Part shown: piece after piece, positions 11,108 through 20,031 of the stretch
Numbering within the stretch: the first letter of the stretch is position 1
Layout of the letters: each line of letters begins with the position of its first letter
Source of the DNA: a virus
DNA: 35,921 nt
Reading direction: 5' to 3' (one strand)
Virus record (IMG/VR): IMGVR_UViG_3300008262_000249
Span: 1 to 35,921 of that record
Notes under the pieces: model-generated
What the model was told of the DNA's origin: nothing
Databases searched by the model: none
The model's input: the letters and a program-made list of their open reading frames with translations, nothing else
Program-made: the position numbers and the translations under genes

Positions 11108-11713
11108 TCAGGAACCTAACGAACCTATTCCAAATGCTGGAATTCCTAAAAAAGACCGTGTTATATCTATGATATAAATTAAACGTCTTTTTTGTGATTT
11201 GTTGTGAGCACTATGTAACTGCCCGTTATCGAATCCAAATAAATCGGACCATTCCAATTCTTTACCATCCACTTCAAAATAAACATCACCCTCAGGTACT
11301 ATTAATGGTATATGTATTCTTATTGTATTGTGTGATTTATTTTCTATATCTGCATGTCGATTAATAACACCACCTGCTTCAAGTACACTATAACCACTGC
11401 AACCAGCATGAGCAATGTATTGTTGTGTCAATGTTGAGGCTGTTGGGAATATACTGCGTACTCTTGGTTCAAGGAAAAAGTTTTGTTCAATACGTTGTTC
11501 CGGCAAGGCATAACGTAATCCTTCAACCTTCCAATCATTCTTTTCTTTTTCATCTAATATGGCCAATGGATTTGTTGCTGCGTATGATGTGCCGCCTTTG
11601 AATGTGGTGTGAAAGTCTTTGTGATATTCTAAAAATTCGTCACGCAATTTTGGTACCAGTTCCATTAATTCATCTGCGATTCTAATTTCTTTTCTATACC
11701 AAATTGATTGCAT
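11108..11713 (-). CDS. Aspartyl/asparaginyl beta-hydroxylase-like 2OG oxygenase
   Basis: 201 residues. A double-stranded beta-helix core shows H120-x-D122 (NRHAD), HNTIRIHIPL, and a distal His at 167 or 170 (QLHSAH) followed by Arg176/177. This is the iron- and 2-oxoglutarate-binding set of Asp/Asn beta-hydroxylase-like enzymes. Substrate is unknown; protein side-chain hydroxylation is the family's usual reaction. A good GGAGG site lies directly after the terminal hairpin of the tmRNA, so the two may share a transcript. It is the first of five oxygenase-like genes in about 6 kb. Confidence 0.8.
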   Translation of the reverse strand: MQSIWYRKEIRIADELMELVPKLRDEFLEYHKDFHTTFKGGTSYAATNPLAILDEKEKNDWKVEGLRYALPEQRIEQNFFLEPRVRSIFPTASTLTQQYIAHAGCSGYSVLEAGGVINRHADIENKSHNTIRIHIPLIVPEGDVYFEVDGKELEWSDLFGFDNGQLHSAHNKSQKRRLIYIIDITRSFLGIPAFGIGSLGS

Positions 11714-11727
11714 TATACCTCCACTAA

Positions 11728-11892
11728 GTGGTTGGTTATTCTGTTACGAGGAAACCAACCGAAACCCTAAGCGGCGTTTAGGCTGCTAATGCGAACTGTG
11801 AGTCGTTTGCGTTTACTTGATTTAGTTTTAACATCTTCTCTGATGAGTTGTCCACTTCTGTACTATTTGCCCTGTCGAAACTATGCACCCCC
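11728..11892 (-). ncRNA. tmRNA coding piece with tag ANDSQFALAA
   Basis: 5' end G at 11892: GGGGGUG forms the acceptor stem, then the conserved GUUUCGACAGGG D-analogue. The tag frame runs GCA AAC GAC TCA CAG TTC GCA TTA GCA GCC TAA (11810-11778); as in E. coli, the resume codon is Ala GCA. The stop lies in a CCTAA/TTAGG hairpin. An 8-bp hairpin GGTTGGTT/AACCAACC (11760-11730) probably marks the 3' end. H2 strand GTACAGAA (11863-11856) pairs with TTCTGGAC of the acceptor piece with one mismatch. The tag is close to E. coli ANDENYALAA; the ALAA end is what ClpXP recognises. Confidence 0.9.
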
Positions 11893-12011
11893 ATCAAAAA
11901 CATCTCATATCGGCGTAAGTATTTGCAATTACCACTACAGTAAAAGGTGACTTACCGTGTATCCTCATATGAGTGAGGCCGCTAGTTAGGCGACTTTCTC
12001 TGCCATGTTTT

Positions 12012-12077
12012 TGGTGGAGGTGGGGAGATTCGCACCCCCGTCCAGAACACATTTCTAGTTGCTTCGTACAACCATAA
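12012..12077 (-). ncRNA. tmRNA acceptor piece
   Basis: Begins near the predicted transcription start. It carries a small GTTG/CAAC hairpin, the H2 strand TTCTGGAC (12047-12040), then a T-arm GGGGG-TGCGAAT-CTCCC with one G-U pair. The acceptor strand CACCTCC, discriminator A and encoded CCA end at 12012. The T-loop has TG in place of the usual TT, a mild deviation. The mature 3' end would be made by processing in the following A-rich intervening segment. Confidence 0.9.
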
Positions 12078-12083
12078 AAACAC

Positions 12084-12112
12084 ATTATAACATATCTTAT
12101 TTATTGTGTCAA
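12084..12112 (-). promoter_or_regulatory. Consensus sigma70 promoter of the tmRNA
   Basis: -35 TTGACA (12112-12107) and -10 TATAAT (12089-12084), both exact consensus, with a 17-bp spacer and an extended -10 TG. The spacer also contains a late core TAAATA (12103-12098). The -35 overlaps the stop of the nuclease gene. Transcription should begin near 12077. Confidence 0.92.
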
Positions 12113-12768
12113 CTGTTTTTGTGATAAAAATCAATTGCCTTAACCAGACCTTCAATGTGGTCTTGTGTTTTTTCTCTAAAAACTAATGGTGGTGCATCTT
12201 GCACAGCCATAATAATTACCAGTTCATCAATTGGTTGGCCAACCAATTCTTCATACATCAATGCATATGCAGTTGTTTGCCAGAAATAATCCAAAATAGA
12301 ATCACGGTCTTTAGCCTTCTTTGATGTTTTAAAATCAATTACAGACAGTTTACCCTCATACTCACCAATACAGTCTACACGACCTGCCAGTCCAAGTTGG
12401 GAGGACCACAATCCAACCTCTTGGTAGTGTATATTGTTGATTTTGTTTAGTAATGGTTTGATTGATATGAACATCTCTTTGGCATCAGGCATAACAGTTC
12501 CTGGTGGTTTAGGTTCATTGTTCAAATAGTATTCACACAACGTATGCATATTGGTGCCACGGGATGTGGCCTGTCTGGAGATTTTGTTTGCAACTTCATC
12601 ACCAACTCTACGGCGCCATGCCATGATGGCTTCTTTTTTCTGTGCTCCCACCACTGTGGTCACCGATGGTAATTTCTTGCCGTCAGGTGTGACATAATAT
12701 CTTTTCCCGTCAGGAAAAGTTTGAGATTCAATTTTTGGAATCTCTTTTGGTGGGCAATAAACAAACAT
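12109..12768 (-). CDS. PD-(D/E)XK exonuclease (MGME1/Cas4-like)
   Basis: 219 residues. The nuclease core is E117 (YQEVGL), D132 (GLAGRVDCIG), D145-F-K147 (VIDFKTSKK), preceded by a conserved H75 (RGTNMH). This is the RecB-like PD-(D/E)XK arrangement of MGME1- and Cas4-type exonucleases, found widely in T4-like phages, where it probably acts on single-stranded ends in replication or recombination. The start overlaps the radical SAM stop (TAATG) with an AGGA site inside that gene's end, so the two are coupled. No CRISPR array is present, so a Cas4 role is not implied. Confidence 0.82.
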   Translation of the reverse strand: MFVYCPPKEIPKIESQTFPDGKRYYVTPDGKKLPSVTTVVGAQKKEAIMAWRRRVGDEVANKISRQATSRGTNMHTLCEYYLNNEPKPPGTVMPDAKEMFISIKPLLNKINNIHYQEVGLWSSQLGLAGRVDCIGEYEGKLSVIDFKTSKKAKDRDSILDYFWQTTAYALMYEELVGQPIDELVIIMAVQDAPPLVFREKTQDHIEGLVKAIDFYHKNS

Positions 12769-14285
12769 TATAATCCTAACTTTAATCTTTTATATTCAAG
12801 GATAGTTTGATCCGCTTCTTCAATTTTTTTATTCAAAAAAGTTTTGTCGAATGTTCCATCAATGATATCTTTAATATCAACTCCCATACCAACCAATTCA
12901 AATACATCATGGTTGATACTGACACCTTTATCAGCATTACCATAAATTGATTTGCCTGCTTTAATTCGGTGTTGTTCTGTTTCCACATTTAAATCGGTTG
13001 TAATTTTTCTTGAATTGAAATAGTTTAAGTATTTATTTTTCCAAATTAACAAATTACTGTCATCGTTGTGATATCGTGTATCATCATCACCTTCTGGTAT
13101 CGTATATTCTCCGGGTAATAATTCACTATAACCCCACTTCTCATATTCCTTTTCAAATTCACTTAGGCGACTAACAGAATTTTTTCTGATAACCAAGGGC
13201 CACCAATCCCAATTGTCAAACACTTCAAAATTTTGGTCCAATAACATTTTCTGACTCTTGTATACACTAGATAGGGGTTCACCAGGTAAACCACAAATCA
13301 TTCCTGTATAAGTGTAGGTTGGTTTGTACTTCTTTAACTGTCTAATCGCTTCAAACTGTCTTTCATTATCTAGGCCTTTACCGATGGCCTTCTTTGCTTC
13401 AGGATGAAATGTTTCCAAACCAAATGTTGCAGCAACCAAACCAGTGTCAGCCAACATAGGTATAGTTTCTGGAAAACGTTCAATCAAATCTGCACGTAAG
13501 AATGCTGTGTAAGTAATCTTAATACCACTCTTTGCAATAGCTTCAGCAACATAATCCAATTTAACCACATTGTCATTGAATGTATCATCATTGAACCAAT
13601 AGTTATTCACACCAAACATTTCATAATTTCTACGCAACTCTGCGGCTAAATTATCCACATGGCGAATATAATCATTTTTCTTTTTGCCTAACAATGGGAA
13701 GGCACAGAATCGGCATCTGAATATACATCCTCGACTAATTTCAATCGGCAAGAAATTGTTTTTGATTAAATCACTTTCTAACCATTTGATTGTTAAATCA
13801 CTATCATCATTTTTATATAGCATTTCTGCATTGATAGATAGTGTTCCTTTGTATGGTACCCATTTCAAATCATCCAAACGTTTTTTGTTTAGAAATTTAA
13901 GGTAGTGTAATACGGCTTCTTCAGCATAACCCCAAAAAACTCTATCAACTTGTGTTAAATCTACACCATCAATTGGTGTCTCATTACCACCAATCAATGT
14001 TTTCACTTGTGGATATTTTTCTCTGATGTATTTGAATAAATGATTCAATTTATCAAAAGCATATATGAACGTAATACTGATACCAACAAACAAAGTTTTT
14101 GGTCCAATAAATCTATCACAAACTCTTTCAATTTCTTCTTCAGTGAAGTTACCAAAGTAATCAACGACCTCAAGGTTATAACCATGTGGTTCTAAAAAAG
14201 TTCTTAATCTTGCTGCACCGGCCGGCCGACTAATTGTTCTAGTTCGTTCCATACCGGTAAAAACAATACCATGTATATCGGTCAT
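12768..14285 (-). CDS. Radical SAM enzyme with B12-binding-like N-terminus
   Basis: 505 residues. C187, C191 and C194 (RGCIFRCRFCAF) are the CxxxCxxC ligands of the radical SAM [4Fe-4S] cluster. Residues 1-130 look like the Rossmann-type domain of B12-binding radical SAM proteins (VGISITF, TLIGGNETP, FWGYAEEAV), but I do not see the DxHxxG cobalamin ligand motif, so it may not bind B12. The SAM barrel continues with WFNDDTFND, FGLETF and MICGLPGEP. Substrate is unknown. It is first in a run with four oxygenase-like genes and upstream-coupled to the nuclease. The ATG has no clear Shine-Dalgarno sequence. Confidence 0.85.
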   Translation of the reverse strand: MTDIHGIVFTGMERTRTISRPAGAARLRTFLEPHGYNLEVVDYFGNFTEEEIERVCDRFIGPKTLFVGISITFIYAFDKLNHLFKYIREKYPQVKTLIGGNETPIDGVDLTQVDRVFWGYAEEAVLHYLKFLNKKRLDDLKWVPYKGTLSINAEMLYKNDDSDLTIKWLESDLIKNNFLPIEISRGCIFRCRFCAFPLLGKKKNDYIRHVDNLAAELRRNYEMFGVNNYWFNDDTFNDNVVKLDYVAEAIAKSGIKITYTAFLRADLIERFPETIPMLADTGLVAATFGLETFHPEAKKAIGKGLDNERQFEAIRQLKKYKPTYTYTGMICGLPGEPLSSVYKSQKMLLDQNFEVFDNWDWWPLVIRKNSVSRLSEFEKEYEKWGYSELLPGEYTIPEGDDDTRYHNDDSNLLIWKNKYLNYFNSRKITTDLNVETEQHRIKAGKSIYGNADKGVSINHDVFELVGMGVDIKDIIDGTFDKTFLNKKIEEADQTILEYKRLKLGL

Positions 14286-14288
14286 AAT

Positions 14289-15083
14289 TTAAATGAATTC
14301 GTTATCTCTAACTTTTTTGGTAACATATCTTTCTCTAATTGCCTCAAAAAAATCAATATCTTCATCTGTTAATTCAGCATCATCAATTTTTTGTCGGAAC
14401 CCTCTTACAAAATTTTGTAATTGTTCGAATTCTCCGTCATAATTAAAATGTTTTGTTACCTTTTTGGTGTCATATGCATCCATGATGATATGATATCGGT
14501 CTTCATCCGAGTCATTTCGAATTTGGTGCCATTGATTCACCCAAAGAATCCAGACACTACCATCAGCAGGCATATGCAAATTTTTACCTTGGGATATATG
14601 CACACATTTCTTGTTTGTGAATAATGGAATATGAATACGAGCCATATATTCCGTTTCATCAGCATCTCTATGCACCAAAGATTTTGAGTGTGCTTTCAAA
14701 CAAGTAACCCTTGCTCTTGTAGGATAAAAACCCATCTCACGTATATCGTCCAGAACTTTTTTAATTTCACCAACATATGCTTCGGTAGGTTTATCATGTT
14801 CTAGACCATGTGATATATTAAAAAATTTGTATGCTTTTGCGACTAATTCATTTGTTGGTAAGAATGATTCTAATGATTGTCCTTTTTCTAATTGAACAGC
14901 TTCCCAACCGCCAGTCCATGTGGCTTCTTTGCACAGTAAACTCCATCCACCAAATCCATTATATTTCGGTGTTTCGTATTCTTCGCCTTGAATAACTTGG
15001 TCACCCAAAGTGAAAACACTATCTTTCACTTCTTGTTTTAATTTTTCAATATCTACTGTATAGTTTAATTTTTCGAAAAACAT
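14289..15083 (-). CDS. 2OG-Fe(II) oxygenase, Asp/Asn hydroxylase-like
   Basis: 264 residues. H138-R-D140 (LVHRDAD) gives the HxD iron motif, IHIPL a core strand, H186 (NQWHQIRN) the distal His and R196 (DEDRYHII) the likely 2-oxoglutarate ligand. Spacing fits Asp/Asn beta-hydroxylase-like proteins. A strong AAAGGA site precedes the ATG. It sits between the radical SAM gene and two smaller oxygenase-like genes in the same direction with few spare bases, so co-transcription is likely. Substrate is not evident; a phage protein is one possibility. Confidence 0.8.
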   Translation of the reverse strand: MFFEKLNYTVDIEKLKQEVKDSVFTLGDQVIQGEEYETPKYNGFGGWSLLCKEATWTGGWEAVQLEKGQSLESFLPTNELVAKAYKFFNISHGLEHDKPTEAYVGEIKKVLDDIREMGFYPTRARVTCLKAHSKSLVHRDADETEYMARIHIPLFTNKKCVHISQGKNLHMPADGSVWILWVNQWHQIRNDSDEDRYHIIMDAYDTKKVTKHFNYDGEFEQLQNFVRGFRQKIDDAELTDEDIDFFEAIRERYVTKKVRDNEFI

Positions 15084-15093
15084 TTCTTATCCT

Positions 15094-15765
15094 TTATAAG
15101 TTTCCAGTTTCTTGTAACATTTCATACACCTGACTATATTCATATAATTTGGTTCTAAGTGCAAAAGCCTTTCTAAGTTTTGCATCGCCACCTAATGGTT
15201 CAACATTATGTGCAACTCTAACGTCCAGCATATATGCTTCTCCAGTTTGAGCCACAAAAGATCCAATTTCATAAACATCATCAAATGTGTATACCGCATC
15301 AACGTATGTTATTTCTTCACAAGTTGGCATATTTTGTTTTTCAGACACAAATTCTTTAACTCTTGTTTTTAATTCCTCAACATTAACATTTTGGTCTATA
15401 ATTGTTCCCCCATCAACACCATGGTGTCTATCTTCTTCTGTCTTCCAAGAATTTGCTCCTGGTTTTGGTTTGAAGAAAACTGTCCTGTAATTCTGTGGGT
15501 CATAATAAAAATTGATTGTTGTTATAAAATCATTATCAACGTGTGGTAACAACAAACTATTAATAGACATTCTTGTTACTTGAAAATCTTTCCAATACCT
15601 TTCAGGTATAACTTTATACAACACTTCTTTTTCAGGTTCTGGTGTCCAAATTGTACTGTGTCTTACACCTAGTCCATATTTTCCAGCAAATGAATCAGCC
15701 TTACCTTGTGGTATAATGGTGTGTGGCATATATTCATATGTATGTTTTAATTTAACAAACGACAT
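15094..15765 (-). CDS. 2OG-Fe(II) oxygenase-like protein, paralogue 1
   Basis: 223 residues. HxD at H75/D77 (LLPHVDND), core INFYYDP, distal H186 (VAHNVEP) and R198 (LRKAFALRT) complete the 2OG oxygenase set. It is clearly related to the next gene: both share an opening MxFxKL, a KxIWxPE block, RYWxDF, PHxDxxxITxINFY, TxFxKPK, EIGSFVA or EVGSFVA and LRKAxxL. This copy has an insertion of about 45 residues between FFKPK and EIGSFVA. Substrate unknown. Confidence 0.78.
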   Translation of the reverse strand: MSFVKLKHTYEYMPHTIIPQGKADSFAGKYGLGVRHSTIWTPEPEKEVLYKVIPERYWKDFQVTRMSINSLLLPHVDNDFITTINFYYDPQNYRTVFFKPKPGANSWKTEEDRHHGVDGGTIIDQNVNVEELKTRVKEFVSEKQNMPTCEEITYVDAVYTFDDVYEIGSFVAQTGEAYMLDVRVAHNVEPLGGDAKLRKAFALRTKLYEYSQVYEMLQETGNL

Positions 15766-16285
15766 TATTGGTTTCCTTTAACATTTCTAGTACGTCCTGA
15801 TACTTATGAACAAAAGTTCCTAAGGTAATGGCTTTACGTAAATTAAATTTACCCTTAACGCCATGTATTTGACTTACATCAAGTAACCAAATATCATAAT
15901 CTTTAGCAACAAAACTACCAACTTCAATTAAATCTTCTTCAAAATATATATGTCCATTGGTTTGATTCTCAACCTGTACAGTTTTTGGAATCTCCACCTT
16001 CGGTTTATAAAAAGTTGTTGTGCAACCTTCGGTTTGCATATAGAAATTTATAGAGGTGATAATTTCAGTATCTGTGTGTGGTGGGATTATACAATCAATT
16101 GTCATAACTGTCAAGTGAAAGTCCTGCCAATACCTTTTTGGTAATACAGCATAAATCTTTTCTGCTTCAGGTGACCATATTTTCTTATAGTCAATACCTT
16201 TACCATCAAATTTGAAATTTTTTAATGGGTCGGTAATTGCATATATTGGTTTTTCAAAAGATTTTTCCAGCTTGGTAAACATCAT
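15752..16285 (-). CDS. 2OG-Fe(II) oxygenase-like protein, paralogue 2
   Basis: About 177 residues. H72/D74 by the longest numbering (PPHTDTE), core INFYMQTEG, distal H143 (QIHGVKG) and R152 (NLRKAITL). It is a shorter paralogue of the previous gene without its middle insertion. I place the start at the ATG that overlaps the preceding stop as ATGA, because MMFTKLEKSFE then aligns with MSFVKLKHTYE of the paralogue; an ATG six bases earlier is possible. Its 3' end overlaps the start of its paralogue by 14 bases, consistent with tandem duplication. Confidence 0.78.
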   Translation of the reverse strand: MMFTKLEKSFEKPIYAITDPLKNFKFDGKGIDYKKIWSPEAEKIYAVLPKRYWQDFHLTVMTIDCIIPPHTDTEIITSINFYMQTEGCTTTFYKPKVEIPKTVQVENQTNGHIYFEEDLIEVGSFVAKDYDIWLLDVSQIHGVKGKFNLRKAITLGTFVHKYQDVLEMLKETNNVVC

Positions 16286-16974
16286 TTCCATTCTTTAATC
16301 TTTGCCATGCGACCAGCCCAAGATTTTAAAATTACCGTATTTTGTGCATTTTTATCTACCACTTTTCTTAGGTCGGTTGATAGTGAAATACGTAGGTCAT
16401 CGGATTTATTTTCGTCAACTCCATGCAACACATATGACGGAAAGAATATCAATCTACCTTCAACCGGTTTATATCTACGTTCTCTTAATTTTGGTGTACT
16501 ACTTAGTGTATTGTTTAACCAATCAATGGCCTGTGCGGAATCAAATAATACAAGGTCACCACAACCTTCTTTAACTTTGATATAATACGTTGCTGCAATT
16601 GCTGATTCGGTGTGTCCATGCACCTCTAAGCGTTCTCCTGGTTCACGCACATTGACCCAACCCATGAAGTGTTCACAACCACGAATGTTTAACATCCTGA
16701 GTTGTGGAATATTTTGCACAATCTTCTTGGTTACAATGTCTATAATTTCTTGTTTGAGTATATCTAAGTTGGGTCTACTGTAGTCCCATATACTGTTGTT
16801 TGGATCCTTATCTTTACCCAATACAATATCTTTACCAATACCATAAATTTCATCCAATAATGTCTCATTAAATTGTTCATCGAATTTAGTTTGCACTTCC
16901 CACACCGGACTTTGCCAAAACATATTCTGTGCATTTTGGTACCAATGGTACGCATCTCTGTCATCTTTTGTCAT
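16282..16974 (-). CDS. 2OG-Fe(II) oxygenase, 2OG-FeII_Oxy_5 type
   Basis: 230 residues. The pattern is that of the phage-common Oxy_5 type: WVNVREPGERLEVHGHTE (H119, H121, E123), AATYYIKV, a GDLVLFD turn, then GRLIFFPSYVLHGVDEN with H184 and RISLSTDL with R195. The iron site here would be H121-x-E123 or H119-x-H121 with H184, and R195 for 2-oxoglutarate. Its stop overlaps the next gene (ATGA). The fold differs from the two neighbours downstream, so the cassette was not built only by duplication. Confidence 0.8.
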   Translation of the reverse strand: MTKDDRDAYHWYQNAQNMFWQSPVWEVQTKFDEQFNETLLDEIYGIGKDIVLGKDKDPNNSIWDYSRPNLDILKQEIIDIVTKKIVQNIPQLRMLNIRGCEHFMGWVNVREPGERLEVHGHTESAIAATYYIKVKEGCGDLVLFDSAQAIDWLNNTLSSTPKLRERRYKPVEGRLIFFPSYVLHGVDENKSDDLRISLSTDLRKVVDKNAQNTVILKSWAGRMAKIKEWK

Positions 16975-16982
16975 AATAAAAA

Positions 16983-17369
16983 TCAGTAATTTTGTTTTTC
17001 AAACCATTCTTTAAATTGTCTTAGGTGTTCCAATTTCAACTGATGTTCCTCATCTGTCAAATCAGCATCTTTCGGTAAAGATGCATAATTTTCATATTCT
17101 TCTGTTGGATTTCTAAAAATTGGATCATTTGCCGTTGTCCAACCAGCTTCCGTGAATTTCTGAATCTGTCCGTCAAATAGTTCCACTAATACATCCTCAT
17201 ACTCATAACTCATGCGGAAAAATTCATCTTTTTCTTCTTCACTTAAAGCAGCAACTCTTTCGAAGAATGTTTTTTTTACAAAATTTGGTATTAATGTTTT
17301 ATCGTATAAAATATTTTCATTATTATATGTTTTTATTGTTGGAAGTAAAGTATGTGAATATTTTTTCAT
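16983..17369 (-). CDS. Hypothetical protein, EWxEKQ-tailed family, copy 1
   Basis: 128 residues from MKKYSHTLL, whose ATG overlaps the stop of the previous gene (ATGA); an ATG 15 bases earlier is possible. No domain recognised. It is acidic and helical in the second half and ends FKEWFEKQNY, resembling the end of the upstream neighbour (YKEWLEKQ). Both also carry an SxEEKDEFF or TQQKKERVF helix followed by ...VELFDGQI or ...LTKIFGNAL, so the two look like diverged copies. Cys is absent. The cassette context suggests a partner or substrate of the modifying enzymes, but nothing proves it. Confidence 0.7.
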   Translation of the reverse strand: MKKYSHTLLPTIKTYNNENILYDKTLIPNFVKKTFFERVAALSEEEKDEFFRMSYEYEDVLVELFDGQIQKFTEAGWTTANDPIFRNPTEEYENYASLPKDADLTDEEHQLKLEHLRQFKEWFEKQNY

Positions 17370-17656
17370 TGTTTTTCCAACCATTCTTTATATTCTCTAA
17401 CATATGCATTATCAACATTATCTCTAGTCAATTTTGGAACAAAAACCGCACTTTCGGCCAAAGCGTTCCCAAAAATTTTTGTTAGTAAATTTTCATGTTT
17501 TGTTAACAGTTCAAAAACACGTTCTTTTTTTTGTTGCGTCATTGAGTCAAAGGCATTTGAACTATATGTGTTAAAAAAATGTCTCAGATGTTCATCTGTA
17601 TAATCCAGATTGTTAATCAATATTTTAACCGGTCTTATACTAGAATATGTCGTCAT
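17366..17656 (-). CDS. Hypothetical protein, EWxEKQ-tailed family, copy 2
   Basis: 96 residues without a recognised domain. An N-terminal strand-rich part (IRPVKILINNLDY) is followed by helices (HLRHFFNTYSS, KKERVFELLTKHENLLTKIF) and the tail REYKEWLEKQ. Related to the next gene by its tail and central helix. The start overlaps the stop of the Cys-rich protein gene, so translation is likely coupled to it. Function unknown. Confidence 0.7.
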   Translation of the reverse strand: MTTYSSIRPVKILINNLDYTDEHLRHFFNTYSSNAFDSMTQQKKERVFELLTKHENLLTKIFGNALAESAVFVPKLTRDNVDNAYVREYKEWLEKQ

Positions 17657-18546
17657 TATGCCACCTTTTTCTTTGGAATAAATCTCTCAATAAAACGACC
17701 TAGTTCTGCAACCAATTTGAACATTACAAAAATTACAACAAGGCCAGCACCTTTTAAGAAACCAGGTTCTTTTTTACTTGGTCCAAACCAACGTTGCCAT
17801 ACACCAATTACCTTACAGATTGGTGTGCCAAACACAAACATCATTTTACCTGTCAGACTGCCTGTTTCCTTTTCACCCATCAAGTATGCCATTTCTTCTG
17901 CCCAAGGTGTTGCAATATCGTGAGCCCAAGTGATGGACCATTTCTTTGCAGCTGCACTAAATTCTTCATCGGACATCCAAGGCATCATCTTAGGACCTTT
18001 GCCATCCATCCAATCAACAACAATTTCTGCCCATGCACGATAACCATTGTAGATATCTGGATTAGTTTTTTGCAAACGTTCACCAAATGCTTGGTCTGCT
18101 TCAAAAATGTTTTTCTTCATCAATCCCAAATCAAACAACTTGGTACAAATAATCTTTGAACAATTGCAATTATAAGAAAAACAATTTTGGTTTGATGTGC
18201 AGTTGTATACGGGTGTTGTTGATAACTGACAGTCTCCAGTTTGTAACCAAGCCTGAGTATCACAGTTTGCACAATTTACTGCGGTACAATTATTGGTTTT
18301 ATTACATTGAATATTACCACAATTACAATTTTTTGCGGTATTGTTTACGTTATTACAATTTCCAGCATTATTCTGTCTATAATATCTCAACCCACCAAAA
18401 GAACCTAAATTTGATGTACCTGGTCTTATAGCTGGTTTTATAAAACCATTTAAAAAAGTCAATTCCGTAGGAACGGTATATATTCGGCCAAGTTCTGCAT
18501 TAATGTTTGAAAATCCGATAGGTTGACCTGGTGCTGGTAGTGGCAT
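17656..18546 (-). CDS. Cys/Asn-rich virion-like protein
   Basis: 296 residues in three parts. Residues 1-55 (QPIGFSNINAELGR, TFLNGFIKPAIRPG, LGSFGGL) look like the N-terminal segment repeated in tail and neck proteins of aquatic T4-like phages. Residues 64-134 hold 13 Cys, ten of them in Asn-Cys pairs. Residues 137-250 are helical and Trp-rich (KMMPWMSDEE, WAHDIATPWAEEMAYL). A hydrophobic helix at about 268-286 (GLVVIFVMFKLVAEL) and a basic end follow. It lies directly downstream of the SPASM radical SAM gene, so it is the obvious candidate substrate, though it may simply be a disulfide- or metal-rich virion protein. No enzyme motif seen. Confidence 0.72.
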   Translation of the reverse strand: MPLPAPGQPIGFSNINAELGRIYTVPTELTFLNGFIKPAIRPGTSNLGSFGGLRYYRQNNAGNCNNVNNTAKNCNCGNIQCNKTNNCTAVNCANCDTQAWLQTGDCQLSTTPVYNCTSNQNCFSYNCNCSKIICTKLFDLGLMKKNIFEADQAFGERLQKTNPDIYNGYRAWAEIVVDWMDGKGPKMMPWMSDEEFSAAAKKWSITWAHDIATPWAEEMAYLMGEKETGSLTGKMMFVFGTPICKVIGVWQRWFGPSKKEPGFLKGAGLVVIFVMFKLVAELGRFIERFIPKKKVA

Positions 18547-18575
18547 TTTTTCTACTCTCTATAATGTTGTTGTAG

Positions 18576-18583
18576 TTATTTAG
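18576..18583 (-). promoter_or_regulatory. Candidate late promoter of the Cys-rich protein
   Basis: The minus strand reads ACTAAATA, containing the late core TAAATA, 31-36 bases upstream of the ATG, the same distance as at gp48. It overlaps the stop codon of the radical SAM gene. Two mismatches from TATAAATA make it weaker than the copy at 10517. Confidence 0.45.
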
Positions 18584-20031
18584 TTTTCTAAACGAGATTT
18601 ACCATAAACCAAAACTTCATCAACTTCACCAATAATCTCTTTAATTACCTTGATTGGTATAATTTTTTTCTGTTTATCTTCTTCGTGCGTGAATATATTA
18701 CCAAAGATATCTTGTCGGTCAAGAGGTAGAGTATCACTCTTAATTAGTGTCGGAATATAACCACCTGTCATGACTGTGAATCCGGCCGCAAATAATGCCA
18801 CGTTATCAGAGTATGCATTAGCACAAGAAACATCCCAAAACTTTTCGTCCAAGAACATACATGCACCTTTACAGACATGTAACACTGGACACTCTGGACA
18901 TTCTTTTCGGTTAGACCAATGTGTAACAGACTTCAATTCAACTTTCGCATAATCTTCCAAGTTTCCACCATGGTGTGATTCACCGTTTTTGGAAATTTCC
19001 AAAGAACTCACATTCTGGCAGGTCATAACGTTACCACGTAAATCGACAGACAAAGTGTGTTCATCATCCATACCACACTTTTGACCCAAATATTTAGATT
19101 CTCTATGAGACAATACACCAGTCACAAAATCATCAATTTTACCTAATTGTGCTCTGAAACCAATTTGACCTTCTGTGCCATACAACTCACCAAAGGCACG
19201 TTGTCTAAAATCAAAATGTTCTTGTTTTGTGATTAGTGAGTATGATATACCTTCTTCGTCATAGGCATCAACCATTGAACCTTCACCCAAGATAACATTT
19301 TCGTCACCAGTAAGATTTACGAACCAATCATAGATTTCTTTACGACTTTGATTTTTAGAGTTCAACATTGAATTGAAACTAAAACTTTTACCAAGTCTAG
19401 TCATCATACGATAGAATCCCAAAATACGTTCTTTCTGTTCAGGATCATCAAACGGATCAGGACCACGTACAAATTGACCTGGTCCATCATGTGAAATAGA
19501 CACAGCAAAATCCATCATCATTAACCAATCAATAATTTCATCAGTTAGTATCGAACCATTGGTGATAACACTGAATTGTGGTTTGGTTTTCCAACCATCA
19601 AATTTTTCAGCGATGGCCTCAGCCAATGGTTTCATTGTTTTCCAATAAACAAGAGGCTCACCACCCCAAAATTCAATTTTCAGACCAACATCTTCATCAA
19701 AGTGTAATACATTTAATTTTTCCATAAAAACATCAATGTCTTTTTTGGAAGTTTCTGGCTGACGTTCAACAAATTTCTGTGAACAATAATCACAAGAATA
19801 GTTACAACTCAATCCCATTTGAATTTTTAAATGACTAATTAATTTAGATTTCTTGAGTGGTCTATTCTTATCAAAAGATTTGTATGGTTTGAGTCTATGT
19901 TGAGGCATTTGGTCCTGTGGATATTCAAAAAGATTACCATCGGAGTCCTTCAACACATTAGCCATGTTGTCATAGAAAAATGTTTGTGTATCACCGTCTT
20001 CGAAACGTGTGGCTTGAATTTCAAAAATCAT
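18580..20031 (-). CDS. Radical SAM/SPASM peptide-modifying enzyme
   Basis: 483 residues. The cluster-binding CxxxCxxC is at C76, C80 and C83 (GLSCNYSCDYC), followed by KIEFWGGEPLVYW (SAM-binding GGEP), SVITNGS and AVSISHDGP. A C-terminal Cys-rich region, GQKCGMD, VMTCQN, CPECPVLHVCKGACMF and DVSCANAY, is a SPASM/twitch-type domain for auxiliary Fe-S clusters. This architecture is typical of anaerobic sulfatase-maturating and RiPP peptide-modifying enzymes, which act on Cys, Ser or other residues of a protein substrate. A strong AGAGGAAA site precedes the ATG. It stands immediately upstream of the Cys/Asn-rich gene. Confidence 0.87.
   Translation of the reverse strand: MIFEIQATRFEDGDTQTFFYDNMANVLKDSDGNLFEYPQDQMPQHRLKPYKSFDKNRPLKKSKLISHLKIQMGLSCNYSCDYCSQKFVERQPETSKKDIDVFMEKLNVLHFDEDVGLKIEFWGGEPLVYWKTMKPLAEAIAEKFDGWKTKPQFSVITNGSILTDEIIDWLMMMDFAVSISHDGPGQFVRGPDPFDDPEQKERILGFYRMMTRLGKSFSFNSMLNSKNQSRKEIYDWFVNLTGDENVILGEGSMVDAYDEEGISYSLITKQEHFDFRQRAFGELYGTEGQIGFRAQLGKIDDFVTGVLSHRESKYLGQKCGMDDEHTLSVDLRGNVMTCQNVSSLEISKNGESHHGGNLEDYAKVELKSVTHWSNRKECPECPVLHVCKGACMFLDEKFWDVSCANAYSDNVALFAAGFTVMTGGYIPTLIKSDTLPLDRQDIFGNIFTHEEDKQKKIIPIKVIKEIIGEVDEVLVYGKSRLEN

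Follow-up and report, generated by a model that had tools for sequence, protein, structure and literature searches.

Two-piece tmRNAs were reported from phages in 2022, those of Melnitz and Mosig among them, and 53 of 133 phage tmRNA types were found to be two-piece (PMC9004378). A tmRNA database holds 97,179 entries, 79 of which are from phages, and the cargo on record for the intervening segment (IVS) of permuted genes comprises a tRNA gene and a repeat (PMC11915505). Such RNAs have thus been published for T4-like phages, and the gene described here is a new member of this known kind. It comes from a window (the whole stretch of 35,921 nucleotides that was analysed) that represents a 35.9-kb linear virus record, a fragment, and the virus is T4-like, with a gp32-like single-strand binding protein, a tail tube, a DNA end protector and a PhoH-like protein.

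Melnitz and Mosig resemble the window in having a permuted ssrA gene in T4-like aquatic phages, and in Mosig, a phage of Pelagibacter (SAR11), the tmRNA lies near a PD-(D/E)XK exonuclease 45% identical to that of the window, with one small ORF between the two. However, the tmRNAs of Melnitz and Mosig are alphaproteobacterial or SAR11-like, whereas that of the window is beta-type by Rfam; the Mosig IVS has 44 nt against 119 nt in the window, and the T-loop is different. Permuted tmRNAs of the betaproteobacteria (RF01850/RF04321) share the gene order, the acceptor stem and the tag frame with the window, but bacterial IVSs have 3-55 nt in nearly all cases and bacterial tags are mostly ANDERFALAA or ANDEQFAIAA, the phage clade being separate. 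The Stenotrophomonas phages Moby and Marzo also have a permuted tmRNA according to ARAGORN, but with the acceptor stem GGGGATG/CATCTCC, an IVS of 57 nt and the tag ANDDSYTVRIAA. A precedent for IVS cargo comes from a nominally archaeal MAG, in which the IVS of a permuted tmRNA contains a tRNA-Ala gene (PMC11915505), whereas the cargo described below consists of protein-coding ORFs of several unrelated families in phage relatives, the window itself having none. ARAGORN also detects a permuted tmRNA with the tag ANDETFSMALAA in Synechococcus phage BUCT-ZZ01 (L004, positions 789-1207), which is missing from the annotation of that record.

The Rfam covariance models, which do not include pseudoknots, identified a tmRNA gene of the circularly permuted (two-piece) type, complete, at positions 11725-12126 of the window on the minus strand. 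The match to RF01850 (beta_tmRNA) spans the whole model with 114.5 bits (E = 2.3e-34, cut-off 84) and that to RF04321 (tmRNA_permuted) reaches 114 bits (E = 9.8e-22, cut-off 47), both far beyond chance. Most bacterial beta-type genes score 157-331 bits, and the lower score of the window reflects some deviation from the bacterial consensus. The gene order is promoter, acceptor piece, 119-nt IVS and coding piece with the tag, and the locus comprises the following features:

12109 to 12768, minus strand: PD-(D/E)XK exonuclease (phrog_298, PF12705), the upstream neighbour.
12084 to 12112, minus strand: sigma-70 promoter TTGACA-17-TATAAT, 12 of 12 consensus positions, with TG before the -10 hexamer (extended -10).
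12012 to 12073 (5' limit approximate), minus strand: tmRNA 3' (acceptor) piece, from the RF01850 and RF04321 alignments, with an H2 strand, the T-arm GGGGG-UGCGAAU-CUCCC, the acceptor strand CACCUCC and an encoded ACCA ending at 12012.
11893 to 12011, minus strand: IVS of 119 nt, presumably excised, with the closing helix AAAACAU/AUGUUUU, which extends the acceptor stem, and a conserved UGAU at its end.
11778 to 11892, minus strand: tmRNA 5' (coding) piece from G1 (11892) to the tag stop, from the Rfam alignments, with the acceptor strand GGGGGUG, the D-analogue, an H2 strand, the resume region and the tag.
11778 to 11810, minus strand: tag frame ANDSQFALAA and stop TAA, read from the sequence (GCA AAC GAC TCA CAG TTC GCA TTA GCA GCC TAA).
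11730 to 11760, minus strand: 3' terminal hairpin of the coding piece, GGUUGGUU...AACCAACC with loop CUCGUAACAGAAU, from the sequence and the end of the RF01850 alignment.
11108 to 11713, minus strand: aspartyl/asparaginyl beta-hydroxylase-like protein (PF05118, E = 1.6e-14), the downstream gene.

A preliminary description, made from the letters of the window, had proposed a permuted two-piece tmRNA with this tag on the minus strand, a 119-base segment between the CCA half and the tag half, and a complete copy, preceded by a consensus promoter, in a T4-like phage. All these elements lie where it had placed them, and the search with the Rfam permuted models that it had suggested exceeded both cut-offs. 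The perfect acceptor stem that it described likewise holds, GGGGGUG (11892-11886) pairing with CACCUCC at 7 of 7 positions, including G3-U70. The suggested ARAGORN run turned out differently: the program did not call the tmRNA of the window, a further difference from Melnitz and Mosig, and was also silent on L017, L029 and L053, three contigs in which the gene is identical. The T-stem of the window, GGGGG/CUCCC, contains a single G-U pair, which is common to all four missed genes. IVS length was ruled out as the cause of the miss, for shortening the IVS in silico still gave no call. An assembly error is disfavoured because identical copies of the gene occur in the three other metagenome contigs.

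Covariation was analysed in 74 distinct viral permuted tmRNAs, chosen without requiring pairing in the acceptor stem or the closing helix. Across these sequences, pairing in the acceptor stem plus the IVS closing helix amounts to 96.5%, and 12 pairs (178 cells) have changed on both sides, whereas slid partners gave at most 55% pairing and at most 34 cells, and shuffles at most 85.5% pairing. The AAAACAT/ATGTTTT closure noticed in the preliminary description is real, as this covariation shows. Compensatory variants of the acceptor stem include GGGGGTG/CACCTCC, GGGCCTG/CAGGTCC, GGGGATG/CATCTCC and GGGGCTG/CAGCTCC; U70 is present in 74 of 74 viral rows, 73 of which have G3-U70. Each of the 63 distinct phage tags ends in AA, in 58 cases as LAA, and the tag is conserved among relatives despite synonymous codon changes. 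Covariation, conservation of the tag and the kept place beside the exonuclease are three comparative signs, drawn from sequence, which indicate that the gene is functional.

The kept place is evident from 54 loci in which a homologue of the exonuclease lies upstream of the tmRNA, and an equivalent promoter is found at the same position upstream of the divergent relatives L009, L021, L031, L052, L070 and L135. Neighbour clustering showed that the beta-hydroxylase-like gene is kept beside the tmRNA only in near-identical contigs. A phage metabolic gene cluster extends over 11108-20031 of the window on the minus strand, with two aspartyl/asparaginyl hydroxylase-like proteins, a 2OG-Fe(II) oxygenase and two radical-SAM proteins, one of which has a weak B12-binding match under its cut-off.

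A tree of 136 mature sequences places the window inside the viral group, in a phage-only clade, and the sole bacterial-labelled row in its larger tree group is L273, a chimeric-looking contig. The nearest phage tmRNA is 93% identical to that of the window and the nearest bacterial-labelled ones 78-81%, and a search of about 85,000 species of bacteria and archaea gave no exact copy of the 23-nt 5' start. Therefore, the gene descends within phages and the host cannot be named from the tmRNA, contrary to the earlier expectation that the host lineage might be read from it. It is very unlikely that a host ssrA was captured recently and travels as a passenger whose sequence names the host; the top-scoring Rfam family is indeed the betaproteobacterial one, but the window neither groups with nor comes near in identity to bacterial tmRNAs, and the exonuclease neighbour is kept throughout the 54 loci and in the SAR11 phage. 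Beta-type permuted tmRNAs over the cut-off were present in only 13 of 300 sampled genomes of the order. Methylophilaceae was tried as an assignment for a small-genome bacterial group (L318-L322, IVS AAAG...CTTTTGAT) and rejected, as no genome reached the hxlA cut-off. In L273 (positions 1803-2370), binned as bacterium UBP17, a standard tmRNA with the tag ADEDYALAA runs at its 3' end into a phage-type IVS and coding piece, an arrangement that represents either an assembly chimera or integration at a shared acceptor sequence.

The window thus very probably carries a functional, phage-lineage-specific, circularly permuted ssrA gene, most likely topping up host trans-translation during infection. 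A single precursor would be transcribed by the host RNA polymerase from the consensus promoter, and its acceptor stem and IVS closing helix form one continuous hairpin, as the covariation shows. Host RNase P and 3' tRNA-processing enzymes would cut before G1 (11892) and after the CCA (12012), leaving a two-piece tmRNA with its halves joined by the acceptor and H2 pairing. This RNA would be charged with alanine by virtue of G3-U70, use host SmpB, free stalled ribosomes and add the degron ANDSQFALAA; its processing, charging and trans-translation are predicted here from those of bacterial two-piece tmRNAs (PMC3985003). SmpB was not found in 19 related virus records, some of them fragments, and therefore the SmpB and machinery of the host must serve. 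Phage nucleases and mRNA breakdown would produce non-stop messages, and the phage tmRNA would most likely supplement host trans-translation. Supplementing the host system fits the data better than the replacement or reprogramming that the preliminary description had suggested, which is not indicated, given the ordinary degrons and the lack of SmpB in these records. The same lack would suit a decoy, an RNA that shuts down trans-translation in the host by competing for SmpB, alanyl-tRNA synthetase or ribosomes, and the tag-less tmRNA of phage DS6A, as cited in PMC11915505, offers a precedent. However, a decoy needs no tag frame, stop codon or LAA degron, all of which are kept across the phage clade with synonymous changes, and the tag of the window is present and conserved; a decoy is accordingly considered improbable.

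The IVS of the window shows little constraint in its interior, which is not alignable with that of its closest relatives and scores within shuffles, and its fold is no better than that of shuffles (z = -0.31), so that a structured RNA was rejected. The only reading frame of note, of 24 codons and ending at the shared TGA, was likewise rejected, being without a Shine-Dalgarno sequence and within chance. The unalignable interior and the fold also make it extremely improbable that the IVS is the main functional product, a regulatory RNA or riboswitch to which the tmRNA is secondary: a glutamine riboswitch has been reported with the Melnitz tmRNA (PMC9004378) and some other phages have similar non-coding IVS interiors, but the IVS of the window does not itself match any Rfam family. 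The best reading is that of a spacer whose sequence matters only in the closing helix and the terminal UGAU. A similar non-coding interior, GACGAACCGAG...GGTAGCAAACAC, occurs in different phages (L068, L071, L080, L127, L152 and L155) and may have a function of its own.

The preliminary description overlooked the IVS as a variable slot able to hold small genes. Bacterial IVSs measure 3-88 nt in a first sample, the 88-nt one being that of L273, 5-50 nt in betaproteobacteria and 5-55 nt in 29 genomes of the phylum, the alphaproteobacterial limits being those given by ARAGORN. An alphaproteobacterial exception is the alpha-type permuted tmRNA of L535 (1501-1832), with a structured, hairpin-rich and GC-rich IVS of roughly 140 nt. 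The IVSs of 146 distinct viral genes have a median of 71 nt and a maximum of 246 nt. Those of at least 130 nt are nearly filled by an ORF in 9 of 9 distinct cases, in a sample not selected for Shine-Dalgarno sequences, against 0.23 expected from dinucleotide shuffles; in a Shine-Dalgarno-selected sample, biased by its search pattern, an ORF is present in 23 of 25 against 1.38 expected. Typically, the CCA is followed by NAAGGA at nt 1-6, in the 5' strand of the closing helix, and by a start at about nt 11, and the stop is often the TGA of the conserved TGAT, one base before G1. In one family (L412, L429, L454, L557 and L558) and in L419, L435 and L463, the ORF extends past G1 into the mature coding piece.

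Small IVS ORFs are carried by L109, L141, L445, L058, L015, L431, L408, L418, L437 and their relatives. Those of 41, 42, 47, 50, 52, 54, 64 and 73 codons have no evident mutual similarity, and several shorter ones resemble single membrane helices. A tblastn search of 50,697 isolate phage records gave no match for five IVS ORFs (52, 47, 64, 54 and 73 aa), and ten gave no match to PHROGs below E = 0.02. Pairwise comparisons gave dS 0.18 and dN 0 for L109/L372, dS 2.1 and dN 0.20 for L383/L109, dS 2.1 and dN 0.33 for L141/L445, dS 0.83 and dN 0.19 for L015/L406, and saturated dS with dN 0.27 for the second ORF of L418/L432, which supports the view that several of these ORFs are coding and under purifying selection. 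The IVS is very probably a fast-changing spacer, constrained at its ends only, and the unrelated ORF families indicate that small genes have repeatedly filled it in related phages.

The 52-codon IVS protein has 34 relatives in IMG/VR, most close ones being inside an IVS and others directly upstream of a permuted tmRNA (L507, L515 and L523) or elsewhere. In L515 (2000-2640), where the relative lies upstream, two further small membrane-spanning-looking ORFs occupy the IVS. In L505 (1555-2160), an IVS-type ORF lies between decayed-looking tmRNA halves and is followed by a second permuted tmRNA, an arrangement that possibly arose by tandem duplication and decay.

We lean, by a modest degree, towards the IVS of these related phages being a dual-use slot, in which one precursor would serve as small-protein mRNA and as tmRNA precursor. 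The closing helix would hold the ribosome-binding site in its 5' strand, and translation would stop at the conserved TGA that precedes G1 by one base, or slightly inside the coding piece; therefore, translation should interfere with maturation and vice versa. Where the ORF extends past G1, cutting would yield a non-stop message, which the tmRNA itself should therefore rescue, possibly a built-in feedback. Such coupling of spacer translation to tmRNA maturation is suggested by the arrangement of these elements, and the window gene would be a member of the clade without cargo. What seems to be new is a clade of phages in which the IVS, closed by a helix with strong covariation, is expanded and bears genes; no protein gene inside a tmRNA IVS was found in PMC11915505 or in the open-access papers searched.

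A ribosome-rescue RNA of the phage's own, with no SmpB gene found beside it, implies that infection is limited by rescue capacity. The phage tmRNA passes down within phages and is unsuitable for host assignment. The wider family offers many natural variants in which a processed spacer within a non-coding RNA gene has become, on several occasions, the site of small-protein genes, a compact arrangement. Whether spacer translation competes with tmRNA processing, and which role the tiny, often membrane-type proteins have, can now be tested.
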